From a virus, in IMG/VR virus record IMGVR_UViG_3300017717_002521, positions 27,140 through 91,139 of that record: a stretch of 64,000 nucleotides of DNA. One strand, 5' to 3'. A program made the position numbers and the translations under genes. Under the pieces are notes generated by a model that did not search any database, was not told the DNA's origin, and saw only the letters and a program-made list of their open reading frames with translations. This document shows, piece by piece, positions 18,884-56,539 of the stretch (position 1 is the first letter of the stretch; each line of letters begins with the position of its first letter).

Positions 18884-20928
<2,045 letters not shown>

Positions 20929-36871: not shown

Positions 36872-37063
36872 ATGATAGTAAAACATGAAAAGCTTACTTC
36901 GGTTAAAATTACTCAACCTCTTTTCGATAAATTTAAAATGGCAGCTTTAGAAGATAATTTTTCTTTTAAAAAACTTGCTGATCGTGCCATTTTTCTTTAT
37001 CTTACAGATATAGAGTTTAGAAAAAGAATCCATAACCAAAGTAATATTAAGATTAGAAAATGA
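36872..37063 (+). CDS. ribbon-helix-helix-like protein, 63 aa
   Basis: A short strand KLTSVKIT followed by two helices (PLFDKFKMAALEDN; FKKLADRAIFLYLTD) matches a ribbon-helix-helix DNA-binding fold, which acts as a dimer. It stands alone after a TATTTATA-rich gap and overlaps the start of the glycan locus by four bases, so it may regulate that locus. Confidence 0.65.
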   Translation: MIVKHEKLTSVKITQPLFDKFKMAALEDNFSFKKLADRAIFLYLTDIEFRKRIHNQSNIKIRK

Positions 37064-38499
37064 GTAAATTAAAAGGTTATATCAAAAAGGAAAATAGAAA
37101 AAGAATCTTATTCCTTTGCGACGATATTAGAGTTCATTCAGGCATAGCTACTATGGCAAGAGAAATAGTATGCAATTCTGCTCATCACTTCAACTGGTTT
37201 AATTTAGGAGCTGCTATTCAACATCCTGATTTAGGTAAATTAATAGACATATCAGATGATATGAATAAAAGGTTAGATATTACCGATGCAGAGGTTAGAA
37301 TACTACCTAATAATGGTTACGGTGATACTACTATAGTTCGTAGAATATTAAAAGAACAAGATATCGATGCAATATTAATTTTTACTGATCCTCGTTATTG
37401 GGTGTGGTTATTCGAAATAGAAAGAGAAATTAGAAGTAAAGTTCCTATTATTTGGTATAATATATGGGACGATTATCCTGCTCCTTTATACAATAAAGAT
37501 TACTACAGATCAGTAGATACTTTGCTAGCTATATCTAAAGTAACAGAGAACATAAATAAGTTAGTTTTAAATGAATATGCTGATGATAAACTTATTAAGT
37601 ATGTTCCTCATGGTATAGATGAAAAAGTATTTTATCCTATTAATTCTGAAGATAAAAACTTTAAGCAATTTAGAAAAGATACTCTTAAAGGTAACGATTA
37701 CGAATTCGTAGCTTTTTTTAATTCAAGAAATATAAGTAGAAAACATCCTCATGATTTAGTATTAGGATATAGATTATTTTGTGATAAGATTGGGAAAGAA
37801 AAAGCTAAAAACTGTGGTTTAATAATGCACACCTCAGTTGTAGACCAACACGGTACTGATTTAAAAGCTCTTAAAGAGGCTTTGTGTGATCCTTCTTATG
37901 TTAATTTATTATTTTCTAGTTCTAAATTATCTGCTGCTCAACTAAACTGCTTGTATAATATTGCTGACGTAACAGTTCTTCCTTCATCTAACGAAGGATG
38001 GGGGTTATCACTTACTGAGTCAATGTTAGCAGGTACTATGATAGCAGCTAACGTTACAGGGGGTATGCAAGATCAGATGAGATTTAAAAACGATAAAGGA
38101 GAATGGATAGATTTCGATGCAGATTTTCCTTCTAATCATAAAGGTACATATAAAAAATGTGGGGAGTGGGCGATACCTATTTTTCCTTCTAATATAAGTT
38201 TACAAGGTTCTCCTAAGACTCCTTATATTTTTGACGATAGATGTACTCCAGAAGACATAGCAGAAGCTCTTTTTAAAAGCTATAGTATGAAACCATCAGA
38301 TAGAAAACAAAAAGGTTTAAAAGGTAGAGAATGGGCTTTATCTAAAGAAGCTGGTTTTACTTCATCTAAAATGACTCAAGGTATAGTAGATGGAATAAAC
38401 GAAACGATAGATAACTTTAATCCTAGATCTCCTTTTGATCTTATAGAAGCAACTGAAACTAAACCTAGGTACGTAGAGCATAAATTAACAGATTATTAA
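37060..38499 (+). CDS. glycosyltransferase, GT4-like
   Basis: A 479-residue GT-B enzyme opening the glycan locus. The N-terminal domain starts RILFLCDDIRVHSGIATMAR; the C-terminal donor domain has VPHGIDEKVF, LPSSNEGWGLSLTESMLAG, the E-x7-E region of GT4 retaining transferases. A ~60-residue insert (EWIDFDADFPSNHKGTYKKC) enlarges it. The sugar is unknown. Confidence 0.88.
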   Translation: MSKLKGYIKKENRKRILFLCDDIRVHSGIATMAREIVCNSAHHFNWFNLGAAIQHPDLGKLIDISDDMNKRLDITDAEVRILPNNGYGDTTIVRRILKEQDIDAILIFTDPRYWVWLFEIEREIRSKVPIIWYNIWDDYPAPLYNKDYYRSVDTLLAISKVTENINKLVLNEYADDKLIKYVPHGIDEKVFYPINSEDKNFKQFRKDTLKGNDYEFVAFFNSRNISRKHPHDLVLGYRLFCDKIGKEKAKNCGLIMHTSVVDQHGTDLKALKEALCDPSYVNLLFSSSKLSAAQLNCLYNIADVTVLPSSNEGWGLSLTESMLAGTMIAANVTGGMQDQMRFKNDKGEWIDFDADFPSNHKGTYKKCGEWAIPIFPSNISLQGSPKTPYIFDDRCTPEDIAEALFKSYSMKPSDRKQKGLKGREWALSKEAGFTSSKMTQGIVDGINETIDNFNPRSPFDLIEATETKPRYVEHKLTDY

Positions 38500-38500
38500 A

Positions 38501-39298
38501 ATGAATTTAGTTTTTAACGGTTGTAGCTTTGTTAAAGGTAATGCTCTCAGGACGCATCACGATACTGGAGGACATGAAAATCTTTCTTGGGAAGAAAAAG
38601 AGCCATTTAACTTTACTACTTTATTATCTAATAAGTTAAATGGTAAACAAATTAATATTGCATCTGCAGGAGGATCAAATGATAGAATAATAAGATCAAC
38701 GTATGAATGGATTAAGCAAAATCCTAATGAAGTTAAAGATAGTATATTTGTTATAGGTTTAACTGAAATATTAAGAAGCGAAAAGTTTTGTGCTAATACA
38801 AAAACTTATGTAAAATGGAGGTATACTACTTTTGCTAATAATGCTAGAAATTTTAAGAAAGAAGCATTAATGTTATTAGATACTAAATTTTATGAGTTTG
38901 TTAAGAAAAATTATTTAGAAGAAAAGGTATTAGAGTATGCTAAAATGGATCTACTTTTATTCTCTGATTTTGAAAATGAGTATAAAAAACTTAATCAACA
39001 GTTAGATATGCTTCAAGGTTATATAGATAATTTAGGAGGTAAACTATTAGTTTTTGCAGCTATGTTAGAACTTGAAAATACTTACTACAATAGAAATGAA
39101 GACTTTGCTACTGAAGGAGCATCTTTAGATACTTCTAACTTTAATTTTCTTACGTTTCCCGAACAAGGTTCTAATTGTTGGAGATCATATATTAAAAGTT
39201 ATAATGCTAATTATCATGCTTATGATCACCCTGCAATAGATGATCAACCTGTATTAGTTGATATACTATTAAATTATATAAATAAAAATTTTAAATGA
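38501..39298 (+). CDS. SGNH-hydrolase-like protein
   Basis: 265 residues. LVFNGCSFVKGN (block I Ser), ASAGGSNDRIIRS (blocks II/III) and FVIGLTEI precede a long helical part; AYDHPAIDDQP near the end provides the DxxH-like motif. It sits between two GT4 enzymes, so a role in de-acylating or acylating the glycan is plausible. It is the third SGNH gene in the window. Confidence 0.7.
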   Translation: MNLVFNGCSFVKGNALRTHHDTGGHENLSWEEKEPFNFTTLLSNKLNGKQINIASAGGSNDRIIRSTYEWIKQNPNEVKDSIFVIGLTEILRSEKFCANTKTYVKWRYTTFANNARNFKKEALMLLDTKFYEFVKKNYLEEKVLEYAKMDLLLFSDFENEYKKLNQQLDMLQGYIDNLGGKLLVFAAMLELENTYYNRNEDFATEGASLDTSNFNFLTFPEQGSNCWRSYIKSYNANYHAYDHPAIDDQPVLVDILLNYINKNFK

Positions 39299-40584
39299 AT
39301 AAAGATATAATGGTTATTAGCGCTCCTGTAGATACCTACTCAGGGTATGGAGCTAGAGCTAGAGATTTAATCAAAGCTATAATTAATTTAGACAGGTATG
39401 AGATAAAGATACTTTCTCAAAGATGGGGTAATACTAGATTCGGGTACTTAAAAGATCATAATGATACTGAGTTAAGTTCTAGAATAGTAGATAAGTTACA
39501 ATCAAAACCAGATATATGGATACAAATTACTGTTCCTAATGAATTTCAACCTATGGGAAAATATAACATAGGAGTAACTGCTGGTATAGAAACTACTATA
39601 TGTCATGGTAGTTGGTTAGAGGGTTGTAATAGAATGAATCTTGTAATTACTTCTTCACAACACAGCAAAAACGTATTCGAAAAAACTGTATTTGAAAAAA
39701 TAAATAATCAAACTAAACAAAAAGAAGGAGATTTAAAAGTTACTACTCCTGTAGAAGTATTATTAGAAGGAGCTGATTTATCTAAATACTTTGTTACTAA
39801 AGTAAATTCTAATACAGAAATAGTTAAGTCAGTAGATTCTATTAAAGAATCATTTTGTTATCTATCTGTAGGACATTGGATGCAAGGCAATTTCGGGGAG
39901 GATAGAAAAAATATAGGTTATTTAATTAAAGCTTTTACTGAAGTATTTAAAAATAAAATGAAGAAACCTGCTTTAATACTTAAAACTCAAAAAGTAGGAA
40001 GCTCAATAATCGATCAAGAATATTTACTTAGACAGATAAATGCTATTAGAAGAGAGACTAAAGGAACATTACCTAAAATTTATATACTTCACGGAGAAAT
40101 ATCAGACTATGAAATGAATCAATTATATAATCATCCTAAAGTTAAAGCGATGGTTAGCTTTACAAAAGGAGAAGGTTTTGGAAGGCCATTACTTGAATTT
40201 AGTTTAACCGGTAAACCAATAGTAGCATCAGGATGGTCAGGACAAGTTGATTTTTTAGATAAAGATAAAGCTATTCTCATAGGAGGTTCATTAGAAAACG
40301 TTCATGAGTCAGCAAGTATGAAAGATATGATACTTACTGAAGCGAAATGGTTTAAACCTGATGATAATCAAGTAGGGCATGCTTTTAAAGAAACTTATAA
40401 GAATTATAAAAATTATATTCAACCTGCAAAATCTTTAGCTCATAGAAATAAAAAACTATTTAGCTTTGAAGCTATGGAAGAAATTATAAAGAGTTTATTT
40501 GATAAATATATCCCTGAATTTCCAAAGCAAGTGGAACTGAAACTTCCTTCTCTAAAATTACCTAAATTAGTAAAAAATGGATAA
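39295..40584 (+). CDS. glycosyltransferase, GT4-like
   Basis: 429 residues. The start has VDTYSGYGARARDLI (Gly-rich N-terminal loop); the donor domain has LEGADLSKYF, SVGHWMQGNFGEDRKNIGYL and FTKGEGFGRPLLEFSLTGKP with the E-x7-E motif. It overlaps the SGNH gene by four bases and the next by eight. Confidence 0.87.
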   Translation: MNKDIMVISAPVDTYSGYGARARDLIKAIINLDRYEIKILSQRWGNTRFGYLKDHNDTELSSRIVDKLQSKPDIWIQITVPNEFQPMGKYNIGVTAGIETTICHGSWLEGCNRMNLVITSSQHSKNVFEKTVFEKINNQTKQKEGDLKVTTPVEVLLEGADLSKYFVTKVNSNTEIVKSVDSIKESFCYLSVGHWMQGNFGEDRKNIGYLIKAFTEVFKNKMKKPALILKTQKVGSSIIDQEYLLRQINAIRRETKGTLPKIYILHGEISDYEMNQLYNHPKVKAMVSFTKGEGFGRPLLEFSLTGKPIVASGWSGQVDFLDKDKAILIGGSLENVHESASMKDMILTEAKWFKPDDNQVGHAFKETYKNYKNYIQPAKSLAHRNKKLFSFEAMEEIIKSLFDKYIPEFPKQVELKLPSLKLPKLVKNG

Positions 40585-41047
40585 CTTAATACAAAGCCCA
40601 GTCAGTGATAGTAATGCTTGTTATGTTACTGAACTAAACGATGGAATTACTTCTTATTTAGATTTCGGGAGTGGTTTTACTACTACTACTTTAATGATTG
40701 AAAAATCGCAACAAGTAGCTAATGCAATAGAATCATCACCAGAACTTTTTAAAGATATTAGGAAGATTGATAAAGATGGGTTAATATGGTTTCCTGCTAC
40801 TATATCTATTCCTAATTCCGGAATGGTTTTTGCTGATGGTACTTCTAAAGATGACTGGAAATGGTCGGCTGTTAAATCTATTTCTCTTACAGAAGATGAA
40901 ATTCAATCTGGTAAGTTTCCTGCTGGTCAGGCTACTAAAATGGATATGAATAATGCAAAAAGTTTTCCAAGAGAAAAAGGATTTATAGATGCTTTAGAGG
41001 AAATAGGATTCTTTGGTATTGATTTTACTAAACCAACAGTTAAATGA
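40577..41047 (+). CDS. hypothetical protein, 156 aa
   Basis: Not recognised. A soluble alpha/beta protein without signal peptide or cysteine cluster. WFPATISIPNSGMVFADGT and KMDMNNAKSFPREKGF look like conserved patches. Coupled on both sides within the glycan locus, but no enzymatic motif is visible. Confidence 0.7.
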   Translation: MDNLIQSPVSDSNACYVTELNDGITSYLDFGSGFTTTTLMIEKSQQVANAIESSPELFKDIRKIDKDGLIWFPATISIPNSGMVFADGTSKDDWKWSAVKSISLTEDEIQSGKFPAGQATKMDMNNAKSFPREKGFIDALEEIGFFGIDFTKPTVK

Positions 41048-41673
41048 AAATAACCTTCGCTATAACAGTATGTAACGAACAATTTGAGATAATCAGGTTA
41101 GTTGAAATGATTTTAGCTAATAAAAGGACACAAGACGACATAGTGGTGTTGTATGATCAAACTAACGGTAATTCTGAAATACCTACTTGGTTAACAAAAA
41201 AATCTAATCTTCCTGGTTTTCAATTTTGGAGAGGAGCTTTTAAAGGTAACTTTGCTGATTGGAAAAATAAATTAACTGAGTACTGTTCTGGGGATTATAT
41301 ATTTCAGATAGATGCTGATGAATATCCTAATAAAGAATTATTTACTTATCTTCCTATGATATTAGAATCTAATCCTAACAATGAAGTTTATTTAGTTCCT
41401 AGAGTAAATACTGTAGAAGGTCTTACTGAAGGTCATACTAAAAAATGGGGATGGAATGTAAGTAATAAAGGTTGGATAAACTGGCCGGACTATCAATGGC
41501 GTATATGGAAAAATAAACCTGAGATCAAATGGAAAAATAAAGTACATGAAGTACTTACTGGTTTTAAAGCTTACGCTCCATTACCAGCGGAAGAAAAATT
41601 AGCATTGTATCATCCAAAGACGATTGACCGTCAAGAAATACAGAATAAATATTATGAATCTCTCATTAATTAA
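41044..41673 (+). CDS. glycosyltransferase, GT2-like
   Basis: 209 residues. MKITFAITVCNEQFEIIR is the GT2 nucleotide-binding start; YIFQIDADEYPN is the DxD metal motif; KVHEVLTGFKAY and LYHPKTIDRQ lie in the acceptor region. It overlaps the FkbM-type methyltransferase gene by 20 bases. Confidence 0.88.
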   Translation: MKITFAITVCNEQFEIIRLVEMILANKRTQDDIVVLYDQTNGNSEIPTWLTKKSNLPGFQFWRGAFKGNFADWKNKLTEYCSGDYIFQIDADEYPNKELFTYLPMILESNPNNEVYLVPRVNTVEGLTEGHTKKWGWNVSNKGWINWPDYQWRIWKNKPEIKWKNKVHEVLTGFKAYAPLPAEEKLALYHPKTIDRQEIQNKYYESLIN

Positions 41674-42256
41674 TAACTATTTTGATCCTAAAACAGTATT
41701 AGATATAGGAGCGAATGTAGGGCAGTTTCATTCTAATGCTAAAAGCATTTGGCCAGAAAGCTATATTTTTTCTATAGAAGCTTCAGATGCTTGTGAACCA
41801 TATTTAAATGAAATTACTAATGACTATCTTATTTGCCTATTGACTAAAGATGATACTAAGTATGAATTTTTTAGTCGCAAAAATGATCCAACCTGTACTG
41901 GTAATTCAATATATAGAGAACTAACTGAATTTTACTCTGACGATCAATTAGATGTAATTAAAAAGGACGGTATTAAACTTGACGATTTATTTACTAAAGA
42001 TTCGATGTTTGATCTAATAAAAATTGACACCCAGGGATCAGAGCTAGATATTTTAGAAGGAGGAAAAGAATTATGCAAAAAAGCAAAAGGTATTCTGTTA
42101 GAAGTTTCGTTTAATGAATATAATTTAAATGCTCCTTTGGTAGATCAAGTACTTAAATATATGGATAATTTTAAGTTTAAACCTGCTATAGTTTTGGACA
42201 TTCAGACTAATCATGGTTCACACCAAGAAGATATTTTATTTTTAAATGAAAGATAA
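41654..42256 (+). CDS. FkbM-family methyltransferase
   Basis: 200 residues starting at ATG 41654 (a TTG 30 bases earlier is less likely). VLDIGANVGQFHSNAKSIWP is the SAM-binding motif I; FSIEASDACEPYL is the motif II acid; LIKIDTQGSELDILEGG and ILLEVSFNEY are FkbM family markers. It probably O-methylates a sugar in the glycan made by the surrounding transferases, a common way to cap or mask glycans. Confidence 0.92.
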   Translation: MNLSLINNYFDPKTVLDIGANVGQFHSNAKSIWPESYIFSIEASDACEPYLNEITNDYLICLLTKDDTKYEFFSRKNDPTCTGNSIYRELTEFYSDDQLDVIKKDGIKLDDLFTKDSMFDLIKIDTQGSELDILEGGKELCKKAKGILLEVSFNEYNLNAPLVDQVLKYMDNFKFKPAIVLDIQTNHGSHQEDILFLNER

Positions 42257-43016
42257 TTTACTTATAGGAGCTGTAAGCGGAAATTACGGTGTAGAAGATA
42301 TTAAAACTTGGGTAGATACCTCAGAGTATGGCTTTAGTAGAACTCTTATAGTATTTAATGCTAAAGACAACAATGAATTACTTCCATATTTAGAATCTAA
42401 AAATATAAAATACATTCTTCCTACTTTCGATTTTTGGGGTAACGAAAAAGATTTTTTTGAACATCACACAGGTAAAATGAATTTGCAGAATAGCTTTGAT
42501 CTTATACATAATATGAGATTTATGTATATTCATAAGTATCTACAAGAACAGAAGTATAATAAAGTATTAGTAACTGACGTAAAAGACGTTAAGTTTAATA
42601 GTGATCCTTTTACTATGCTTCCATCCGACAAGTTAGTAGCTACAGGAGAAGTTATAAAGTATAAAGATGATGAATGGAATATGCAGCATTTAATTTATAA
42701 TATCGGTATATTTGGATTTGATTTTAAAGAAGAAGAAGTACTTAACGTAGGAGTTTTTGGAGGTTCAGCTGATTTAGTTAGAGATTTAAGCAGAGATATA
42801 TTTTTACTATCCGCTGGTAAACCTAAAGTAGCTGATCAAACTTCATTTAATTACTTAGCTAGAACATTATATAAAGATAAGTTTATTTTTACCAGCATAC
42901 ATGATAAGATCGCTGTTCATCTTCAGGTTATAGTAAATGGGTTAGTTGAATTTGATTATAGTACTATTCCGTACTACCCAATAGTTCATCAATACGATAG
43001 AATAAAAGATGTATAG
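42246..43016 (+). CDS. glycosyltransferase-like protein
   Basis: 256 residues. KVLVTDVKDVKFNSDPF is a DxKD variant of the metal-binding motif; NVGVFGGSADLVRDLS and VADQTSFNYLAR match the follow-on motifs of GT-A enzymes in the GT8/GT77-like group. The final HQYDRIKD is in the usual place of the last metal-binding His. Confidence 0.78.
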   Translation: MKDNLLIGAVSGNYGVEDIKTWVDTSEYGFSRTLIVFNAKDNNELLPYLESKNIKYILPTFDFWGNEKDFFEHHTGKMNLQNSFDLIHNMRFMYIHKYLQEQKYNKVLVTDVKDVKFNSDPFTMLPSDKLVATGEVIKYKDDEWNMQHLIYNIGIFGFDFKEEEVLNVGVFGGSADLVRDLSRDIFLLSAGKPKVADQTSFNYLARTLYKDKFIFTSIHDKIAVHLQVIVNGLVEFDYSTIPYYPIVHQYDRIKDV

Positions 43017-43719
43017 TATTATAATATCATATAGAGATAGAGAGTCACATTTAGAAATGCTTCTTCCTAGACTAGAAGAACTTTTTGATAGTAAAGACTA
43101 TGAAATTATTATAGCTGAACAAGATAATAATGAAAAGTTTCAGAAGAATAGTTTATACAATTTAGCCGCAGTAAGAGCTAAAGGAGATATTTTTATATTT
43201 CATGATGTTGATTACTACCCTGTTGAAGATATTTCTTATGATACTAAAGTCGATGTTCCATTTTACCCAGTTGGTAAAGTTTTATTTTTAAATGAAAATA
43301 ATCAACCGAGAAAAATTGAAGATATTCCTGCTGGGTATAGAAATTTTCACGTTACAGTAGGAGATCATTCAGGAGGGGTATTTGTTCTTTCAAAAGAATT
43401 ATTTTTTAAAACTAATGGACTAAATCCTTTTTTCAAAGGTTGGGGTAAGGAAGATGATGCAACTAGAGATAGATTAAGATTTTTAGGATATAATTGGAAA
43501 AGAAATAACAAAGCTTTATTTTATGCTCTATACCATAAGGATAGTAAACCTGATGATAACGATAATGACTTTGTAAATAATAATAAACTCTATATGAATC
43601 TTACCTCAGATACTGAAGTAGGTTTAAATAATGTTAACGGTAAGGTAGAAGAGTTTGATATGCCTGATCATTCTAATGTAAGATGGTTAAAAATAAAAGA
43701 TTTTGAATATAAAAGTTAA
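43009..43719 (+). CDS. glycosyltransferase, GT7/galactosyltransferase-like
   Basis: 236 residues. YSIIISYRDRESHLEMLLPR at the start, IFIFHDVDYYPV (DVD metal site), SGGVFVLSKELFFKTNG and FFKGWGKEDDATRDRLR closely follow beta-1,4-galactosyltransferase-type GT7 enzymes, including the GWGxEDD acceptor/catalytic motif. The donor could be UDP-Gal, UDP-GalNAc or another sugar. Confidence 0.88.
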   Translation: MYSIIISYRDRESHLEMLLPRLEELFDSKDYEIIIAEQDNNEKFQKNSLYNLAAVRAKGDIFIFHDVDYYPVEDISYDTKVDVPFYPVGKVLFLNENNQPRKIEDIPAGYRNFHVTVGDHSGGVFVLSKELFFKTNGLNPFFKGWGKEDDATRDRLRFLGYNWKRNNKALFYALYHKDSKPDDNDNDFVNNNKLYMNLTSDTEVGLNNVNGKVEEFDMPDHSNVRWLKIKDFEYKS

Positions 43720-44092
43720 TATTTCACCAGGAGAGTTATTAGATAAAATTTCTATTATAGAACTCAAACTTCTTAAAATAAACGATACAGCTAAACTTAA
43801 TAATATTATGATTGAGTTTGAAGCTCTAAACCCTCAAGTAGTAGAATTATTAGAAAAATTTAAAGAACCTCTTAAACAAAAGTATTTGCATCTTTCAGAA
43901 GTTAATGAAACGTTATGGGATATAGAGGATGCTATTAGAGTAAAGGAAAAGAATAAAGAGTTTGATAGTAAATTTATAGAGCTTGCAAGATCAGTTTATA
44001 GACAAAATGATAAAAGAAGTATTATTAAAAAGTTTATAAATCAAATGACTGACTCTAGTTTAACAGAAGAAAAATCATATGAAGAATACTAA
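43703..44092 (+). CDS. DUF6165-like protein
   Basis: A 129-residue helical protein, start TTG 43703 since no suitable ATG precedes the conserved ISPGELLDKISIIELKLL opening. That opening, with KLNNIMIEFEAL, matches the DUF6165 family found in LPS/glycan gene sets; its function is unknown. It overlaps neighbours on both sides by 17 and 14 bases. Confidence 0.72.
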   Translation: MNIKVNISPGELLDKISIIELKLLKINDTAKLNNIMIEFEALNPQVVELLEKFKEPLKQKYLHLSEVNETLWDIEDAIRVKEKNKEFDSKFIELARSVYRQNDKRSIIKKFINQMTDSSLTEEKSYEEY

Positions 44093-44963
44093 AGTTCTAG
44101 TAATTACTTATGGTTACTTTGGGGATATAGCTTTTGCGTCTTCTTTAGCTGAGTTTCTAAAAAAAGAATACGATACTGTTGATTACCTGATAGGGTTTCC
44201 TCAAATGAGAAAATTAATAAATAATAATCCTTTTATAAACAAAGTATTCGTACCTCCTAATCCAGGTCCAGCTCCTTCAACTAGCGTTGAATTTCAGTTA
44301 ACGTATTCGAAAGTTATACAATTAGGTCCTTTATCGTTTACTAAACCTCCAGTGGTAGAATATAAACAGCAAGCAGGAATAAAGGATAAAAGCCCTGAAT
44401 ATAAACTTTATACCGATCCTGATTTGGATTCAGCTGTTCAGACTTTATTTACTGATTTGCCTAAAAATAAAAAAGTTATAGCTGTTATGAATAATTGGAA
44501 GGAGAAAACTTTTACTTTTACAGAAGAGCAATATAAAGCAGGAATAGATGTTCCAAATTTAGGTTATGGTGGGGCTCATAGAGATACAGATAAAATTATT
44601 TCGGTACTCTCAGATTATTTTACTATATTAACAGTAGGAGTAGATGGAAGCAATCAACATCAAACTGTTAATACTGATGATTACGATTCAAAATCTATTT
44701 TATTTGAAACTTCTATTATGAAATACTGTAATGCTTTTGTAGGTGCTGAAGGAGGTTTATGTAATTTAGCTGCAGGAGTTGGCACCAGTACCATTATTAC
44801 AGGAGATTTTATACATCAACTGTATGGATGGAATGGAGTAATAAAAAAAATTAATGAGCCTAAATTAGGACCCGAAAATTATTTTAAAGAGGGTAAGCAT
44901 AAAACATTAGACCCTTACCTATCAGATGAACAAGTTGTTGAACAAATAAAATTATTACTATGA
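44079..44963 (+). CDS. glycosyltransferase, GT9/heptosyltransferase-like
   Basis: 294 residues, GT-B-like. VLVITYGYFGDIAFASSLAE (GD motif of heptosyltransferases), VDYLIGFPQMRKLINNNPF, VIAVMNNWKEK and the C-terminal CNAFVGAEGGLCNLAAGVGT, where GT9 enzymes bind the nucleotide sugar. It may add a heptose-like or related sugar. Confidence 0.78.
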   Translation: MKNTKVLVITYGYFGDIAFASSLAEFLKKEYDTVDYLIGFPQMRKLINNNPFINKVFVPPNPGPAPSTSVEFQLTYSKVIQLGPLSFTKPPVVEYKQQAGIKDKSPEYKLYTDPDLDSAVQTLFTDLPKNKKVIAVMNNWKEKTFTFTEEQYKAGIDVPNLGYGGAHRDTDKIISVLSDYFTILTVGVDGSNQHQTVNTDDYDSKSILFETSIMKYCNAFVGAEGGLCNLAAGVGTSTIITGDFIHQLYGWNGVIKKINEPKLGPENYFKEGKHKTLDPYLSDEQVVEQIKLLL

Positions 44964-45676
44964 CTAAAAAATTAAATATACTTATTCCAATGGCTGGAGC
45001 TGGAAGTAGATTCCAAGAGGCAGGATATAATCTTCCTAAGCCATTGATAGATGTTAAAGGTAAACCTATGATTCAACACGTGGTCGAAAATATTGCTTTA
45101 GAAGGTAGATATATTTTTATAGTCCAAAAAGAACATTACGAAAAATATTCTTTAAAATATATTCTTAAATTAATTAAACCAGACTGTGAAATTATTATTA
45201 CGGATGGATTAACTGAAGGAGCAGCATCAACTACTTTACTTGCTAAAGATTTAATAAATACAGATGATGCTTTATTGATAGCTAATTCTGATCAATGGAT
45301 AGATTGGGCTCCTAATCATTTTTATGATTACGTTAACAGAAGAAATGCTGATGGAGCTATACTTTCTTTTATATCTAATTCTCCTAAACATAGTTACTCT
45401 AAAATAGAGAATGGTTATATAACTGAAGTAGCAGAAAAAAAAGTTATTAGTAATCATGCAACAGTAGGAATATACTATTGGAAAAAAGGAAGAGACTATA
45501 TAGACTGTACTAATAATATGATAGAAAAAAACATAAGGTATAATAATGAATTTTATGTCTGCCCAGTTTATAATCAACTGATAGAAAAAGGTGGGATGGT
45601 TCTTCCATACGCTATACCACAGATGCACGGTATGGGAACTCCTGAAGAATTAAATAAATTTCTTAGTATAAATTAA
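44960..45676 (+). CDS. sugar-phosphate nucleotidyltransferase
   Basis: 238 residues. LNILIPMAGAGSRFQEAGY is the GxGxRF nucleotide-binding loop; LPKPLIDVKGKPMIQHVV the PKP signature Lys; LLIANSDQWIDW the metal-binding Asp; VAEKKVISNHATVGIYYW the sugar-binding region. It activates a sugar phosphate to an NDP-sugar. It ends exactly where the RuBisCO-like gene begins (TAATG), so the two may act on the same precursor. Confidence 0.9.
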   Translation: MTKKLNILIPMAGAGSRFQEAGYNLPKPLIDVKGKPMIQHVVENIALEGRYIFIVQKEHYEKYSLKYILKLIKPDCEIIITDGLTEGAASTTLLAKDLINTDDALLIANSDQWIDWAPNHFYDYVNRRNADGAILSFISNSPKHSYSKIENGYITEVAEKKVISNHATVGIYYWKKGRDYIDCTNNMIEKNIRYNNEFYVCPVYNQLIEKGGMVLPYAIPQMHGMGTPEELNKFLSIN

Positions 45677-46860
45677 TGAATATATTTAAATTAGAATCTC
45701 AGATAAATAAAGATGAATATTTTATAGTGGAATACTATCTAGGTTCCTCTATTAATCTTAGAGAAGCATCATGGCAACTTGCTATAGGTCAAAGTGTCGG
45801 TAATCCTAACGTTCGTAATAGATGGGAAACTGATGAATTATTCGAAAAGTATTCATGTTTAATATTAGATACTGAAAAGAACTTAAGTCAAAAAAAAGAA
45901 GGTAAGGTTAAAATAGCTTTTCCTGTAATTAATATAGATTTTAAAACTGATGGTATTGCTCATTTGTTAGTTAACATTATGGGAGGTCAAATGGATATAG
46001 AATCAATTGATGTATGTCAAGTATTAAATATATACTTTCCTCAATCGGTTCATGATCTATTTTTAGGACCTAAATTTGGAATAGAAGGCATAAGAAAATT
46101 TACAGGAGTAAATAATAAACCTTTACTAGGTGCTATAGTTAAACCTAAAACTGGTATAAGTGCTAGTCTGCTCTTACAGATGGTAAAAGAATTAGTAGAA
46201 GGAGGAGTTAATTTTATTAAAGAGGATGAAATTATGTCTAACCCTTCTTTCTGTACTATAGAAGAAAGAGTTCCATTAATAATGGATTACTTGAAAGATA
46301 AAAATGTTATTTATTCTGTCTCTATCCATGCTGATCCTCATCAAGTACTAGAGAGAGTAAAACTTGTTCATAAGCTAGGAGGTAATAGCGTTCACGTTAA
46401 TTTCTGGTGTGGAATGGGTATATATAAATCTATAAGAGAACTTGATCTTCCATTATTTGTACATTTTCAAAAAAGTGGAGATAAAATACTTACTAACCGT
46501 AAACATAATTACTATATTGAATGGAAAGTTATTAGTAAACTAGCAGGTATGATGGGAGTAGACTTTATTCATGCAGGTATGATAGGAGGGTACTATAAAT
46601 GGGACGAAGACGAAGTATTAGATTCAGTAGACGAACTACATAAATATGGAGTAATGCCAGCTTTAAGTTGCGGGTTTCATCCTGGGCTAACTGATTTGGT
46701 TTGTAAAAAAGTTGGTAATGATTTTATGGCTAATGTTGGAGGAGCTATTCATGGACATCCCGAAGGTACTTTAGCAGGAGCTAAAGCAATGAGACAAAGC
46801 TTAGATAAAAAGTATGGAGTAGAATATTTTCAAGCTATATCTAAATGGGGTAAAGCATAA
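45676..46860 (+). CDS. RuBisCO-like protein (form IV type)
   Basis: A 394-residue member of the RuBisCO large-subunit superfamily. Landmarks: GAIVKPKTGIS (K156, K158, equivalent to spinach K175/K177), FIKEDEIMSNP with K182, D184 and E185 at the positions of carbamylated K201, D203 and E204, H263 at the H294 place, FIHAGMIGG with H299 (H327), SCGFHPG with S331 (S379) and NVGGAIHGHPEGT (phosphate loop). The loop 6 Lys (K334) is Tyr306 and R295 is Phe264, so carboxylation of ribulose bisphosphate is unlikely. RuBisCO-like proteins instead enolise, isomerise or decarboxylate related sugar acids or sulfur compounds. Its place after a nucleotidyltransferase and among glycosyltransferases suggests making an unusual sugar. 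Confidence 0.9.
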   Translation: MNIFKLESQINKDEYFIVEYYLGSSINLREASWQLAIGQSVGNPNVRNRWETDELFEKYSCLILDTEKNLSQKKEGKVKIAFPVINIDFKTDGIAHLLVNIMGGQMDIESIDVCQVLNIYFPQSVHDLFLGPKFGIEGIRKFTGVNNKPLLGAIVKPKTGISASLLLQMVKELVEGGVNFIKEDEIMSNPSFCTIEERVPLIMDYLKDKNVIYSVSIHADPHQVLERVKLVHKLGGNSVHVNFWCGMGIYKSIRELDLPLFVHFQKSGDKILTNRKHNYYIEWKVISKLAGMMGVDFIHAGMIGGYYKWDEDEVLDSVDELHKYGVMPALSCGFHPGLTDLVCKKVGNDFMANVGGAIHGHPEGTLAGAKAMRQSLDKKYGVEYFQAISKWGKA

Positions 46861-46862
46861 TT

Positions 46863-47549
46863 ATGAAAAAAATAGCATTATGCATCTCAGGACAGCCTAG
46901 ATTTGTTGAGGAAGGTTATGAAAAAGTTTTAAAGCCATTTGTTTTAGATGGAAATGATGTAGATGTATTTATTCATAGTTGGATACCTGACGAAGAGCAA
47001 ATAGGTAAACCTTATATTAATGCTGGAGGACATCCTATGGGAAAAGAAGTTGAAGAAGGTATATTTGATACTGTATCTAAACTTTATAATCCTACTCGAA
47101 CTTTTTATGAGAAGCAAAGATTTTTTGAGTTCGGTAAATATGCTGAAAGAACTCTTCCTCATATAAGAAGTGATTACCTTTTTAGTATGTTTTATTCTAT
47201 CTGGAAGTCTAATAATATTCTAAATGATTATATAATAGAAACTGGTATAGAATACGATTGGGTAGTTAGATCTAGATTTGATGTTCAGCTAAATAAGAAA
47301 ATTGATTTTAATCTTAACGCTTCTTCTATCTTAGTTCCTTATGGGTGTTGGAGTGATGAAGGATTAGTAGATTGTTTTGCATATTCAAATAAATCTAATA
47401 TGGATATATACTGCAATCTTTATAATAATATTGATTATATAATGCATTCTTCTGACATTGGTTTTTGTTGTGAATTTATTCTTAAACAATATTTAGATAC
47501 TATGAAAATAGACGTTCAAGAACTATTCTGGCATTCTCTTTATAGATGA
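46863..47549 (+). CDS. glycan-locus protein, glycosyltransferase-like
   Basis: 228 residues. Opens KKIALCISGQPRFVEEGYE, has VDVFIHSWIPDE and YDWVVRSRFDVQLNKK (an RxRFD site in the DxD position), and ends ELFWHSLYR. This pattern is recurrent in phage and bacterial glycan loci and is thought to be a GT-A-like fold. It shares a general layout with the protein at 62120. Confidence 0.62.
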   Translation: MKKIALCISGQPRFVEEGYEKVLKPFVLDGNDVDVFIHSWIPDEEQIGKPYINAGGHPMGKEVEEGIFDTVSKLYNPTRTFYEKQRFFEFGKYAERTLPHIRSDYLFSMFYSIWKSNNILNDYIIETGIEYDWVVRSRFDVQLNKKIDFNLNASSILVPYGCWSDEGLVDCFAYSNKSNMDIYCNLYNNIDYIMHSSDIGFCCEFILKQYLDTMKIDVQELFWHSLYR

Positions 47550-48004
47550 AAATAATATCACATAGAGGAAATTTATCAGGGCCTGATCCTAAACAAGAAA
47601 ACAAACCATCTCAAATTATAAGTGCTATTGAAAAAGGATATGAAGTTGAAATAGATGTATGGTTTAAAGATAAAAAGTTTTATTTAGGACATGATGAACC
47701 TCAGTACGATTTTCCGTTTGAATTATTAGAAAAGTTTTATACTAAATTATGGGTTCATGCTAAATCTTTTGATACTTTAAATAAACTAAAAGATATAGAT
47801 TATGATGGTAATTATTTAAATTATTTTTGGCATCAATCTGATGATTATGTTTTAACTTCTAAAGGATATATTTGGACTTTCCCTAATAAATTCTTATCTT
47901 ATAATAGTATTTGTGTCAAACCAGAAATACAGACAGAAAAAGTTTTTTTAGACTGTGCAGGTATATGTACGGATTTTCCTATTAAGTATGAAAATAATTT
48001 ATAG
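47546..48004 (+). CDS. short glycerophosphodiester-phosphodiesterase-like protein
   Basis: 152 residues. ISHRGNLSG (His-Arg of the GDPD active site), KGYEVEIDVWFKDKKFYLGH (Glu, Asp, His metal and base residues) and LWVHAKS follow the GDPD TIM-barrel order, but the protein is about 90 residues shorter than typical enzymes and lacks the last strands. It may be a minimal phosphodiesterase that trims or recycles glycan-linked phosphodiesters. Confidence 0.75.
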   Translation: MKIISHRGNLSGPDPKQENKPSQIISAIEKGYEVEIDVWFKDKKFYLGHDEPQYDFPFELLEKFYTKLWVHAKSFDTLNKLKDIDYDGNYLNYFWHQSDDYVLTSKGYIWTFPNKFLSYNSICVKPEIQTEKVFLDCAGICTDFPIKYENNL

Positions 48005-48680
48005 AATATCGGACGCAGGTTATAATAAAGTCAAACCCGATTTTATTACTAACGAAATATGTTTAAGGAATTTTGTAGATGTATTTCTTCCTAACGATTT
48101 TACTGTTATAGCTGATAATATATCTGAGGATACTAAAAAAATGATACTTGAGTATATTCCTGAAGATTGTATTGAATATGTAAAAGTAGGTCATGGAGCA
48201 GGTACTTTTAATCTAGCATTAGATAAAGCATTAACTTATAGTGATGAAGAAATAATTTACTTTATTGAGAATGATTATCTGCACACCCCAGATGCTAAAA
48301 AAATATTAAAAGAAGGTTTCGATATTGGAGCTTCTTTCGTATCTTTATATGATCATCCTGATAAGTATCTTTCTCCAGATAGAGGAGGTAATCCATACTG
48401 TCAAGGTGGAGCAGAAGATACTAGAGTGTATTTAACTAGTAACTCTCATTGGAAAATAACTAATAGTACTACTATGACTTTTGCCGCTAAGGTTAAAACT
48501 TTGAAAGAGACTGAAAGAACTTTAAGAGAATTTACTAATGGAACTCACCCTCATGATTTCCAAATGTTTCTTAAGCTAAGAGAGCAAAATCAATTATTAA
48601 TAACCCCTATACCAGGTAAGTCTACTCATGGAGAAACTGCTTGGTTGTCACCACTAATAGATTGGAATAAATATGCATAA
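47988..48680 (+). CDS. glycosyltransferase-like protein
   Basis: 230 residues from ATG 47988 (an in-frame GTG at 47955 lies deep in the previous gene). KIIYRISDAGYNKVKPDF opens it; EIIYFIENDYLHTPDA provides an END/DxD-like metal site; GNPYCQGGAEDTRVYLT and GKSTHGETAWLSP are conserved in related proteins of glycan loci. Acceptor unknown. Confidence 0.72.
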   Translation: MKIIYRISDAGYNKVKPDFITNEICLRNFVDVFLPNDFTVIADNISEDTKKMILEYIPEDCIEYVKVGHGAGTFNLALDKALTYSDEEIIYFIENDYLHTPDAKKILKEGFDIGASFVSLYDHPDKYLSPDRGGNPYCQGGAEDTRVYLTSNSHWKITNSTTMTFAAKVKTLKETERTLREFTNGTHPHDFQMFLKLREQNQLLITPIPGKSTHGETAWLSPLIDWNKYA

Positions 48681-49758
48681 CAAAACAATTTTAATTACCG
48701 GAGTAGCTGGATTATTAGGAAGCAGATTAGCCGAATATATAATCGAAAAGAAACCTGGTAATACCGTTATAGGTATAGATGACCTTTCAGGAGGATATAA
48801 AAGTAATATACCTAAAGAGGTCAAATTTTACAAAGCAAATACTTTTGATGATAAGATTAAAGATATATTTGAATTAGAGCAACCTGATATAGTATATCAT
48901 TTTGCTGCTTATGCTGCTGAAGGTTTATCTCCCTTCATTCGTACTTTTAACTACGATAATAATTTAAAGAGTACTGCTTCTATAGTTAACGAATGTATTA
49001 AACATAACGTAGAAAGGTTAGTATTTACTTCTACTATGGCCGTTTACGGTAATGGATGGCAAGGTAAAAGACCTTTTGAAGAAATAGACCCTCCTCGTCC
49101 GATAGATCCATACGGTATTGCTAAGTATGCCTGCGAAATGGATATACAATGTGCCGGTGAACAGCATGAATTAGATTGGTGTATACTCAGACCTCACAAC
49201 GTTTACGGACGTAATCAAAATATATGGGATAAATATAGGAACGTTTTAGGTATTTGGATGTATCAATATATGAATAATATACCTCTAACTATCTTTGGTG
49301 ATGGTTCTCAAAGAAGAGCTTGGAGTAGTATAGATGATTGTTTAGAGCCAATGTGGAAGGCTGCATTTATTCCTAAAGCATCTAAAGAAATAATTAACCT
49401 AGGAGGTCCTGAGTTCACAACTATTAATGAAGCTTGTAGAGTAGTAAGAAATGTTATAGGTGGAGGAGATAAAGCTCTTATAGAAAAGATTGAGGTAGTA
49501 TATGAAGAAGCTAGACATGAAGTCAAAAATGCTTACCCAACATGGAAGAAGTCTGAATTAATATTAGGTTTTGAACATACTACTTCTTTAGAAGACGGAT
49601 TGACTGAGATGTGGAAATGGGCTCAGACTCAACCTAACAGAGAAAGATTTGTCTGGAAAAAATATGAATTAGAAAAAGGAATATATAATTTTTGGAAAAA
49701 TGATAAGTCTAATAATACCAACTTACCGCAACCCGAAGTATCTGGATATTTGTCTTAA
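48673..49758 (+). CDS. NAD-dependent nucleotide-sugar epimerase/dehydratase
   Basis: A 361-residue extended SDR enzyme. ITGVAGLLGSRLAEYI is the GxxGxxG NAD site; IGIDDLSGG holds the Asp that selects NAD(H); VFTSTMAVYG and DPYGIAKYACE supply the Ser/Thr and YxxxK catalytic residues; LRPHNVYG and FGDGSQRRAW bind the sugar nucleotide. It resembles UDP-glucose 4-epimerases and related dehydratases. The last 59 bases overlap the next gene. Confidence 0.93.
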   Translation: MHNKTILITGVAGLLGSRLAEYIIEKKPGNTVIGIDDLSGGYKSNIPKEVKFYKANTFDDKIKDIFELEQPDIVYHFAAYAAEGLSPFIRTFNYDNNLKSTASIVNECIKHNVERLVFTSTMAVYGNGWQGKRPFEEIDPPRPIDPYGIAKYACEMDIQCAGEQHELDWCILRPHNVYGRNQNIWDKYRNVLGIWMYQYMNNIPLTIFGDGSQRRAWSSIDDCLEPMWKAAFIPKASKEIINLGGPEFTTINEACRVVRNVIGGGDKALIEKIEVVYEEARHEVKNAYPTWKKSELILGFEHTTSLEDGLTEMWKWAQTQPNRERFVWKKYELEKGIYNFWKNDKSNNTNLPQPEVSGYLS

Positions 49759-50497
49759 ATCTGCCGTAGAAGGTCAGATTAACTATAAGGATAAGAACGA
49801 AATAATAGTAGTTGTAGATGGCTTTGTAGAAGAAAGCAAAGATGTCTTAGAGAAATACAAGGGAAAAGTTCAAGTACTTCCTCTAGAAGGTAATCTTGGT
49901 ATGCAAATGGCTCTTAATTTAGGAGTTATGAATGCTACCAATGAACGAATAATGATTATTAATGATGATAATGTTCTATGTGTAGGTTGGGATTCTATAT
50001 GGGCAGATATGTCTGAAGGAGAAGTAATAACTATAAATCAAATTGAACCTACAGGACCAGGTATATTTAATTTTCCTGTGAAAGATCTTGGAAAGACCCC
50101 AGAGGAGTTTGACTATGATGATTTTGTTCTTTATGAAACCAGTATAAGTTCTAACGAAGTATCAGATGATGGAGGTATATTTCCTTTTGCCATATTTAAA
50201 AAGAATTATATGATGGTAGGGGGATTTGATACTGTTTACCAATCACCTTTTATTTGTGACTGGGATTTCTTTCTTAAGTTAGAATTAGCTGGGTGTACTT
50301 TTACTAGAACACATAGTCAACATTTTTACCACTTTGGTTCTACTGCTACTAAGAACGGCAAAGAGGGAGAAGCTTTCAAAGCTACTGAAGCACCAGCTGC
50401 TGAAACTTATATTTATAAATGGGGAACACCTCCAGGTATTTATGAAAATAATTCTCATATACCTAAAGGTAAATTAATTAAAGGAATACAATTTTAA
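49700..50497 (+). CDS. glycosyltransferase, GT2-like
   Basis: 265 residues. ISLIIPTYRNPKYLDICLKS and EIIVVVDGFVEES open the GT-A fold; IMIINDDNVLCVGW is the DxD motif; PFICDWDFFLKLELAGCTF contains the ED-like catalytic segment. It starts 59 bases before the end of the epimerase gene, an unusually long overlap that leaves its first 19 residues encoded in two frames. Confidence 0.9.
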   Translation: MISLIIPTYRNPKYLDICLKSAVEGQINYKDKNEIIVVVDGFVEESKDVLEKYKGKVQVLPLEGNLGMQMALNLGVMNATNERIMIINDDNVLCVGWDSIWADMSEGEVITINQIEPTGPGIFNFPVKDLGKTPEEFDYDDFVLYETSISSNEVSDDGGIFPFAIFKKNYMMVGGFDTVYQSPFICDWDFFLKLELAGCTFTRTHSQHFYHFGSTATKNGKEGEAFKATEAPAAETYIYKWGTPPGIYENNSHIPKGKLIKGIQF

Positions 50498-50674
50498 ATG
50501 GAAAAGAAATACTTAATAGAATTTACTCATGCAGATGGGACTAAAGAAGAAGTAGAATTAGTTACTGATAGATTAAAATGGTCTATTGATCAGTGGTCTA
50601 GACATAGAGCTGTAGTAAGTCATAAAATTTTAGAAGAAGGAAGTTCTAACGCTAAAAATATGTTACTTGGATGA
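50498..50674 (+). CDS. small hypothetical protein, 58 aa
   Basis: Not recognised. Starts right after the GT2 stop codon and overlaps the dehydrogenase start by four bases. A beta hairpin-like KKYLIEFTHADGTKEEVELV and a basic helix WSIDQWSRHRAVVSHK can be seen. Confidence 0.65.
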   Translation: MEKKYLIEFTHADGTKEEVELVTDRLKWSIDQWSRHRAVVSHKILEEGSSNAKNMLLG

Positions 50675-51504
50675 TAGGAATAATAGGTCAAGGTTTTGTT
50701 GGTAATGCAGTATATCAAAAGTTTAAAAATTTCTATGAAGTTTTAACTTACGATTTAGATAAAGAAAAATCTAATTCAACTTTAGATGATTTAATATTTA
50801 GAAGTGAAACTATATTCGTATGTCTTCCAACTCCTATGAATAAGAATGGGTCTTGCGATACTACTATACTTGAACAATCTTTATATAACTTAGATCTAGT
50901 TGCAGACAATTTAGAGACTAAAAGAACTATTATAATTAAATCTACTATACCTCCAGGAACAACAGATAAATTTAATAAACAATACCCAGCTCTAAATATA
51001 GTATTTAATCCTGAATTTTTAACTGAAAGGAATGCTGTAAAAGATTTTGAAAATCAAAATAGGATAATAATTGGAGGACCAAGACCTGTAACTACAGAGG
51101 TTAAGACTATTTTTAGTAAAGTTTTTCCTAAATCACATATTATTAAGACTGATTCTTCTCATGCAGAAATGATAAAGTATATGACTAATACATTCTTAGC
51201 AACTAAAATATCTTTTGCTAATGAAATATATCAGCTATGTAGTAAATTAAATATAGATTACGATAAGGTAGTAGAGTACGCAACTTTAGACGATAGATTA
51301 GGTGAATCACATTGGGGAGTTCCAGGTCATGATGGAGACTTGGGATTTGGTGGCCATTGTTTCCCTAAGGATTTGGCAGCGTTACTCTACTTATCTTATC
51401 AATATAATACAACTAACGGAGTACTTAAAGCTACACAAGAAACAAACAATAAAGTTAGAAGCGATAGAGATTGGGAAAGAATGAAAGGAAGAGCTGTCTC
51501 CTAG
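50671..51504 (+). CDS. short nucleotide-sugar 6-dehydrogenase
   Basis: 277 residues of the UDP-glucose/UDP-mannose dehydrogenase family, which oxidises a sugar to a uronic acid. GIIGQGFVGNAVY binds NAD; IIKSTIPPGTTDKF, FNPEFLTERNAVKD, EMIKYMTNTFLATKISFANE and FGGHCFPKDL with catalytic C230 and K233 are intact. The usual C-terminal UDP-binding domain (~120 residues) is missing; the protein ends 45 residues after the Cys. The short form occurs in some phages; how it binds substrate is open. Confidence 0.9.
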   Translation: MIGIIGQGFVGNAVYQKFKNFYEVLTYDLDKEKSNSTLDDLIFRSETIFVCLPTPMNKNGSCDTTILEQSLYNLDLVADNLETKRTIIIKSTIPPGTTDKFNKQYPALNIVFNPEFLTERNAVKDFENQNRIIIGGPRPVTTEVKTIFSKVFPKSHIIKTDSSHAEMIKYMTNTFLATKISFANEIYQLCSKLNIDYDKVVEYATLDDRLGESHWGVPGHDGDLGFGGHCFPKDLAALLYLSYQYNTTNGVLKATQETNNKVRSDRDWERMKGRAVS

Positions 51505-55095: not shown

Positions 55096-55836
55096 ATGAT
55101 TATAAATCACAAGTATAAGTTTATTTTTTTTAAGAGTAAAAAAGTTGGCGGAACTAGTATGGAACTAGCTCTTGGTAAATTTACTACTGATAGTGATATA
55201 GTCACAAGAATAAGAAGTGAGGAAGAAGAAGCATTGAGAGATAATTTAGGTATTAATAATAAAAATGCTGGTAGTCTAGTAAATCATAGTACAGCTGCAG
55301 ATTTATTAAAGTTTCTAGAAGCACCTCAATACAGAGATAAGGATATATTTAATTCTTATTTTAAATTTACTATTATTAGAGAACCAGTTGACCTTTTTAT
55401 TAGTAAATACTTTTTTCAAAAGAACTCAGGCCCTAAAAATCCACCCCCAGACCATATTAATGAATGGGTTAAATTATTAAAGGAACGAAGATTATACGGT
55501 AAGAAAAATGTAAGTGATGAAAACTGGAATATATATTCTTTAGATAATAAACTCATTACTGACGATTATATTACATACAGTAAGGATTCAGGACCAGGAT
55601 CTAAAATGTATGAAGACTGTTCAAGAATATCAGAAAAACTAAACTTTCCTGAAAATTTAGCAGATTTATTTTACAATACCAGAGCAAAAACTCAATATAG
55701 AGAAAAGGTCAAAGTAACTCTTTCTAAAGAATCTATAGATTTTATAGAAGAAGTTTCTAAACCTGAAAGAGAAGTTACTGGAATGAAAATAGCTCGCAAA
55801 GAATATGAGGGTACAATAACAAGGCCGTTTATATAA
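55096..55836 (+). CDS. sulfotransferase-family protein
   Basis: 246 residues. KYKFIFFKSKKVGGTSMELA corresponds to the KxxFxHIPKTGGTS-like PAPS loop of the sulfotransferase_2 family (here KSKKVGGTS), and FKFTIIREPVDLFISKYFF to the 3'-phosphate motif with R-P. It is the second sulfotransferase in the window and pairs with a GT25 enzyme, suggesting sulfated glycans. Confidence 0.8.
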   Translation: MIINHKYKFIFFKSKKVGGTSMELALGKFTTDSDIVTRIRSEEEEALRDNLGINNKNAGSLVNHSTAADLLKFLEAPQYRDKDIFNSYFKFTIIREPVDLFISKYFFQKNSGPKNPPPDHINEWVKLLKERRLYGKKNVSDENWNIYSLDNKLITDDYITYSKDSGPGSKMYEDCSRISEKLNFPENLADLFYNTRAKTQYREKVKVTLSKESIDFIEEVSKPEREVTGMKIARKEYEGTITRPFI

Positions 55837-55837
55837 A

Positions 55838-56539
55838 ATGAAAATAGATAGAGCTTTAATTATAAGAAGACTCCAAGTTCCTATTTCAATTGAGTATGCT
55901 GAAATGTGTGCTGCTTCATGCGAAGAGAATAATCTTCCTTATGAGTTTATAGATGCAGTTGAATTTCTATCTTGTGATGAAGCATTTAAATCTGTGGGTA
56001 CATTTAGACAGAAGAAGTATGTAAATAAGGATGGGCATTGTAATGTGCATGCATCTCATATAAAATGCTGGAAACGTATTATAGAGTTAGATAAAGCTTG
56101 CATTATATTAGAACATGATGCTATTGTAAAAGGTGATGTAACAGATGTAGATATATTAGATAATACCATTACTACTTTTGGACATAGAGTAACAGAGTTA
56201 GATGAATATACTCCTCCTTCTCCTGCTATCGGGTTAATCGAAATAGAACGTTCATTCGGAGTACATGCTTGTGGACTTACTCCTACTACAGCTAATACTT
56301 TATGGCAAGCTACAAAAGATAAAGGTATATTTACAGGAGTAGATAACCTATTAATGATTCATAAATCTTCAGGCTTACCTCTCTTTGTATGTGAACCTCC
56401 TCAAGTTGTATGTTGGACTAGAGTCTCTACTATAGAGATTGAAAAAGGTAACTTTAAATCCAACACTACTAACTTTAATGAATCTTTTACAGACGGTTGG
56501 TTAAAAGGTTCTAATAAAAACGTAAAACAAATTATTTAG
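55838..56539 (+). CDS. glycosyltransferase, GT25-like
   Basis: 233 residues. RALIIRRLQVPISIEY opens it; HCNVHASHIKCWKRIIELD and CIILEHDAIVKGD (EHDA metal motif) are the hallmark of LPS/lipooligosaccharide GT25 enzymes. It starts two bases after the sulfotransferase stop. Confidence 0.85.
   Translation: MKIDRALIIRRLQVPISIEYAEMCAASCEENNLPYEFIDAVEFLSCDEAFKSVGTFRQKKYVNKDGHCNVHASHIKCWKRIIELDKACIILEHDAIVKGDVTDVDILDNTITTFGHRVTELDEYTPPSPAIGLIEIERSFGVHACGLTPTTANTLWQATKDKGIFTGVDNLLMIHKSSGLPLFVCEPPQVVCWTRVSTIEIEKGNFKSNTTNFNESFTDGWLKGSNKNVKQII

Follow-up and report, generated by a model that had tools for sequence, protein, structure and literature searches.

A RuBisCO-like clade linked to sugar-nucleotide genes in aquatic phages, SAR11 and other microbes

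The RuBisCO-like gene and its glycan locus

The window analysed here is a stretch of 64,000 nucleotides (positions 27,140 to 91,139 of the IMG/VR virus record IMGVR_UViG_3300017717_002521); all genes of the locus described below lie on its + strand. At 45676..46860, a gene complete from ATG to stop encodes a RuBisCO-like protein (RLP) of 394 aa, recognized by its Pfam match, AlphaFold2 model, alignment and position in a tree. Its start overlaps by 1 nt (TAATG) the stop of an upstream gene (44960..45676) for a 238 aa protein of the sugar-nucleotidyltransferase type (NTP_transferase, PF00483, 48.9 bits vs a cut-off of 21.2). This coupling, reported in a preliminary description made from the sequence alone, is directly seen in the letters. 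None of the NCBIfam equivalogs assigns a substrate to the nucleotidyltransferase of the window, and the entry of 4evw, the nearest relative with a solved structure, gives no specific substrate either.

The same description presented the RLP as a neighbour of glycan genes, which was borne out by profile matches around the gene. On the upstream side lie two group 1 glycosyltransferases (37060..38499 and 39295..40584), a family 2 glycosyltransferase (41044..41673), an FkbM-type methyltransferase (41624..42256), a GT7-type (galactosyltransferase-like) glycosyltransferase (43009..43719) and a DUF6165 protein (43703..44092). The RLP is followed by a 228 aa protein of phrog_13607 (46863..47549), with a weak DUF7796 match and possibly glycosyltransferase-like, and by a mini-GDPD-like protein (47546..48004, 152 aa, AlphaFold2 pLDDT 96.2). 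The latter carries HRG, EN, E-D and HD motifs, invariant or nearly so in 25 sequences. It is short compared with GDPDs (about 230–285 aa), and the similarity of its model to them is partial (TM about 0.5, best E 0.01). Further downstream are a family 2-like glycosyltransferase whose match is weak and below cut-off (47955..48680), an NAD-dependent sugar-nucleotide epimerase/dehydratase (48673..49758; PF01370, 1.1e-43), a family 2 glycosyltransferase whose listed start overlaps the upstream gene, so that the true start may be internal (49700..50497), and a UDP-glucose/GDP-mannose dehydrogenase-type protein, over the TIGR03026 cut-off but short with 277 aa (50671..51504). Apart from this main cluster, a gene for a sulfotransferase-family protein (PF03567, 1.6e-10) and, after it, one for a GT25-type protein occupy 55096–56539.

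The RLP matched the RuBisCO_large profile (PF00016) at 8.1e-36, with 124.2 bits vs a cut-off of 30.1, and RuBisCO_large_N at 2.2e-4. Its AlphaFold2 model (pLDDT 94.3, pTM 0.92) adopts the RuBisCO fold, with form III RuBisCOs as top PDB structure matches (TM 0.87–0.90 for most of the top chains); the PDB sequence match ranking first is likewise form III (2cwx, 9.9e-39). Reading frame, Pfam and model agree on the complete 394-residue RuBisCO-superfamily protein first described. No NCBIfam equivalog cut-off was reached: the RLP scored 190 bits vs 497 for form III, 151.1 vs 700 for OiaX, and 119.3 vs 513.6 and 144.8 vs 409 for the MtnW equivalogs.

Clade placement and active site

A maximum-likelihood tree was built from 73 sequences, comprising phage and cellular members as well as forms I, II and III, MtnW-like, OiaX/NonPhoto and Photo sequences; two reference sequences had been verified against PDB entries before use. 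A branch with 100/99 support separated the phage and cellular members from the forms I–III, MtnW-like, OiaX/NonPhoto and Photo sequences. The window RLP lies outside the form I–III clade (split 100/99) and is placed neither with MTRu isomerases nor with bona fide RuBisCOs. The tree thereby recovers, apart from known clades, the separate RuBisCO-like branch that had been supposed. Within it, the SAR11 sequence L083 nests with phage L026 (100/99), which points to exchange between SAR11 and phages. The module of L083 is situated near pntAB on a 232-kb contig and hence looks chromosomal.

As a RuBisCO homologue outside forms I–III and devoid of carboxylation residues, the RLP belongs to form IV in the broad sense. 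IV-GOS and IV-EnvOnly are named environmental RLP clades. The clade is an undescribed one of form IV type, possibly the same as two sets of published homologues that were compared by description only, as far as the available portions of the reports go. The first consists of 65 ocean RuBisCO homologues falling outside known clades in the GOS survey of 2007 (PMC1821046), which may include the phage RLP clade. The second comes from a landfill study, in which viral rbcL, listed as CO2 fixation and also noted in IMG/VR, grouped with 'RbcL-like' proteins (PMC12607003), possibly of this same clade. In those portions, neither report mentions this RLP active site, a module with the nucleotidyltransferase or a link between SAR11 and phages (PMC1821046, PMC12607003). 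The literature searched, likewise in the portions available, contained no phage RLP–glycan link and no RuBisCO-like clade tied to sugar-nucleotide genes.

We then aligned the active sites of 81 viral and 23 cellular clade members (n=104) with reference RuBisCO and RLP forms. Five residues are kept in the window RLP: K156 (=K175), K158 (=K177), K182 (=K201), D184 (=D203) and E185 (=E204), the last three being the carbamylation/metal triad named beforehand. Eight are replaced, by G38 (E60), N43 (T65), P44 (W66), G104 (N123), Q265 (H294), M302 (T330), Y306 (loop 6 K334) and C332 (G380). The Tyr at the loop 6 Lys position was already part of the preliminary description; the replacements at E60, T65, W66, N123, H294, T330 and G380 are additional to it. 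Its assignment of Phe to R295 has to be corrected, as the aligned residue is Lys266 and Phe264 sits two residues before; across the phage family this position is Lys or Ser. Among the seven sites of the bona fide RuBisCO set (K334, R295, H327, T65, N123, E60 and H294, occupied in the window RLP by Y306, K266, H299, N43, G104, G38 and Q265), H327 alone is retained, and in some members it is lost.

These features are common to the whole clade. K175, K177, K201, D203 and E204 were invariant in 104/104 members, E60G, T65N, W66P, N123G and H294Q were fixed, and T330M, K334Y, S379 and G380C were invariant wherever the sequence extends that far. A second viral set, the best 80 of 346 IMG/VR loci, many of its contigs common to the first set, gave the same signature wherever readable. 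Invariance in two partly overlapping viral sets of 80 loci indicates that the signature is not due to chance. By comparison, K177 was lost in the MtnW (Val), OiaX, Photo and NonPhoto references examined, while the loop 6 Lys, kept in OiaX and NonPhoto references, was never present in the phage RLP clade. Judging from the aligned residues, metal binding and enolisation are predicted to be kept, and CO2 handling and bisphosphate binding to be lost. The earlier view of an active site unsuited to CO2 fixation is supported by the alignment, in which the loop 6 Lys and other carboxylation residues are replaced.

Three phosphate-site positions are variable. Residues 266, 269 and 299 of the window RLP, corresponding to R295, H298 and H327, covary across the family: K-D-H is the commonest pattern (52 sequences), followed by S-A-Q (33 sequences). 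This covariation suggests at least two subgroups, possibly with different substrates, and was counted against the function proposed below.

A recurrent module in viral and cellular genomes

With the window protein alone as query, 169 related stretches were retrieved from IMG/VR, against 346 in a motif scan that used an alignment. Form I, II and III queries, as single proteins or alignments, gave zero viral relatives in these IMG/VR scans, which depend on short peptide patterns such that rare divergent copies could escape. No match was obtained by tblastn of the RLP against the cultured phages of INPHARED, nor does PHROGs hold a family matching it. A T4-type gp23 capsid match was found in 11 of 21 viral records tested and a terminase match in 11 of 21, indicating that many of the RLP genes are carried by T4-like phages. 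The 91-kb record of the window itself has a phage-type DNA polymerase and neither gp23 nor terminase match.

The neighbourhood of the RLP was counted in 33 distinct viral lineages (<80% identity), within six genes and on the same strand. A nucleotidyltransferase was found in 32 lineages, a GDPD-like protein with the HRG motif in 27 and a cupin of ~108 aa in 26, directly upstream of the RLP in 21 of these; farther from the RLP, the same families represented 0–0.4% of genes. Neighbouring module genes show start/stop overlaps. No cupin was found in the window or elsewhere in its 91-kb record, which implies that the module can do without it or replace it.

Cultured cyanophages have the nucleotidyltransferase and the GDPD-like (HRG) protein without the RLP. 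Their glycan loci (for example in S-CAM9, Bellamy and S-SM2) resemble the module in having a relative of the nucleotidyltransferase, which is often joined with a second enzyme domain, as well as the GDPD-like protein and sometimes a cupin, but have HAD, isomerase, aldolase or heptose-type genes in place of the RLP. Thus the two partners are not RLP-specific but general glycan parts, to which the RLP is an added step. HAD–nucleotidyltransferase or nucleotidyltransferase–LacA/B fusions of cyanophages (L174, L175, L176 and L177) are annotated inconsistently as phosphatase, HAD hydrolase or dihydroxybutanone phosphate synthase.

One genome scan yielded 23 cellular loci. Carriers are SAR11/Pelagibacteraceae, three Legionella species, Azospirillum oleiclasticum, one member each of Elusimicrobia, Sphingobacteriales, Verrucomicrobiia, Patescibacteria and Crocinitomicaceae, an alphaproteobacterium and DPANN archaea. 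Many aquatic phages, SAR11 and some other microbes carry a RuBisCO relative without its CO2-fixing parts. Among 369 genomes sampled in the class of the Legionella genome, Legionella alone scored high (319 bits vs ≤127 elsewhere), and high scores were reached by two of 194 genomes from the phylum to which the Nanoarchaeia genome belongs (452 and 288 bits vs ≤217 for the rest). A separate gene in a genome of the former class (L127:1519-3285) encodes an MtnW-like RLP fused to an MtnB dehydratase.

In 21 of the 23 cellular loci the nucleotidyltransferase adjoins the RLP or is 1–2 genes off, and in the other two the contig breaks off near the RLP. The cupin and/or the GDPD-like protein accompany the pair in most loci, and both are present in Azospirillum and Elusimicrobia, deep in the clade. 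The recurrent link to nucleotidyltransferase and glycan genes that the preliminary description had anticipated is therefore found in phages, bacteria and archaea. In Legionella, LicD adjoins the nucleotidyltransferase–RLP pair; an O-antigen ligase-like gene is present in one SAR11 locus, the Legionella match being only weak. LicD was also considered as the transferase of the phages and rejected: it was found in 0 of 30 viral records, so that CDP-alcohol transfer is no general feature. Two further arrangements were observed in SAR11. Two nucleotidyltransferases of the same family (126–141 and 274–290 bits) flank the RLP in loci L089–L093 and L095, and a very long reading frame with a nucleotidyltransferase match lies upstream of cupin and RLP in another (L097:2429-7654).

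Proposed function and alternatives

We propose, with a probability of roughly 0.6, that the RLP belongs to a form IV-type clade of RuBisCO homologues, not yet described, which acts in a sugar-nucleotide biosynthesis module. By guilt by association with its gene partners, it probably works as a metal-dependent enolase or isomerase of a sugar phosphate and contributes to an NDP-activated precursor of a glycan. The general idea of the preliminary description, a surface-glycan precursor obtained through enolisation or isomerisation, is also what we infer as the best account; the tetronate-type product suggested there is a speculative candidate. Legionella LicD, the O-antigen ligase-like gene of SAR11 and the glycosyltransferases of the window were counted in favour of this surface-glycan context.

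In the proposed scheme, carbamylated K182 together with D184 and E185 would bind Mg2+ and K156 (=K175) would abstract a proton from a ketose or keto-acid phosphate, the phosphate of which could be held at the kept phosphate-site glycines G333, G355 and G356. The enediolate would be re-protonated elsewhere and not carboxylated, because none of the loop 6 Lys, N123, T65, E60 and H294 is retained. The coupled nucleotidyltransferase would then activate the product of this isomerisation or tautomerisation, which may first undergo a cupin step, and the glycosyltransferases of the locus would use it for a glycan, most simply one of the infected-cell surface or of the virion. A broader version of this proposal has, in our estimate, an even chance of being right: a RuBisCO-superfamily reaction not described so far, neither CO2 fixation nor salvage, would provide surface glycans with a sugar or sugar acid in NDP-activated form. 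Its genes would form a mobile module that T4-like aquatic phages and SAR11 share with scattered bacteria and archaea, and most 'viral RuBisCO' of IMG/VR would be explained by it.

It is conceivable, if unlikely, that the RLP is instead a carboxylase or decarboxylase with a substrate other than RuBP, through which a branched-chain sugar acid would be formed or broken down for the glycan. Such an activity would agree with the kept metal triad, K175 and K177, the latter lost in the other RLPs compared, and with OiaX, which by annotation decarboxylates 3-oxo-isoapionate 4-phosphate and indicates that RLPs can act on branched keto acids. OiaX and related RLPs found beside four-carbon acid sugar kinases are also form IV proteins of sugar-acid chemistry, again by annotation. 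However, OiaX keeps the loop 6 Lys and R295 and sits in a catabolic operon with the kinase, whereas in the phage clade Lys334 is always Tyr, N123 and H294 are replaced and no four-carbon acid sugar kinase was seen among profiled neighbours; clade and NCBIfam score are both far from OiaX.

We consider very improbable a catalytically dead RLP serving as scaffold or regulator. Many RuBisCO active-site residues are indeed replaced, but the metal-binding and proton-abstraction residues are invariant in all members and the replacements equally so, a pattern that indicates a functional site under selection.

There is only the slightest chance that a methionine-salvage enzyme (DK-MTP-1-P enolase MtnW or a DeepYkr-type isomerase) came to lie in the glycan locus by accident. 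MtnW/YkrW, the 2,3-diketo-5-methylthiopentyl-1-phosphate enolase (2zvi, 2oek), is the best-known non-carboxylating relative and shares with the RLP the fold, the metal triad and the loss of the loop 6 Lys, from which both are presumably non-carboxylating. The RLP pathway of R. rubrum also uses a cupin, which we counted for this alternative. Yet the RLP clade is separate from MtnW and keeps K177, its MtnW scores are far below the cut-offs, no mtn genes were seen in profiled neighbourhoods, and the partner of the RLP is a nucleotidyltransferase.

A true CO2-fixing auxiliary gene (rbcL) or a form III-like enzyme of the nucleotide pathway can practically be set aside: form III RuBisCOs (P. horikoshii 2cwx, T. 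kodakarensis 3a12/3kdo) are the best sequence and fold match and share the metal triad, K175 and K177, and viral rbcL have been reported as carbon-fixation genes (PMC12607003, PMC8506154, PMC12615777, in the portions available), but identity to form III is 24–27% in structure alignments, phosphate-site and CO2-orienting residues are replaced in every clade member, among other changes at E60, T65, N123, H294, K334 and G380, clade and glycan neighbourhood are different, the form III score is far below cut-off, the short-peptide scans of IMG/VR with form I, II and III queries gave no viral match, and the soil-virus rbcL, which groups with genes of Proteobacteria and functions together with rbcS, is, from the available part of that report, a different kind of gene (PMC12615777).

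The annotation of phage RLP genes as CO2-fixing rbcL is probably wrong, and they should not count as viral carbon fixation. The motif scan of IMG/VR gave 346 relatives, the best 80 all bearing the non-carboxylating signature, and none of forms I–III, so that automated 'rbcL' calls in aquatic phages would probably lead to too high an estimate of viral carbon fixation. RLPs are known from salvage and from sugar-acid breakdown; a glycan-building branch, if true, would add an anabolic role. Through the module common to SAR11 genomes and phages, it becomes testable whether phage genes are connected with the surface chemistry of a bacterium that ranks among the most abundant in the ocean.

Several other features of the window were observed. 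A reading frame of 609 aa at 30887–32716, where local GC reaches 0.386, has a signal-peptide-like start and a long low-complexity stretch rich in Ser/Thr/Glu/Gln; a second one of 609 aa, unrelated to the first, lies at 59639–61468, and neither has a PHROG match. GC skew falls to about zero at 60–62 kb. Finally, a GroEL (phrog_5725) is encoded at 19195–20832 and a GTP cyclohydrolase (phrog_5949) at 12296–13201; in a phage, the latter could hint at 7-deazaguanine DNA modification.
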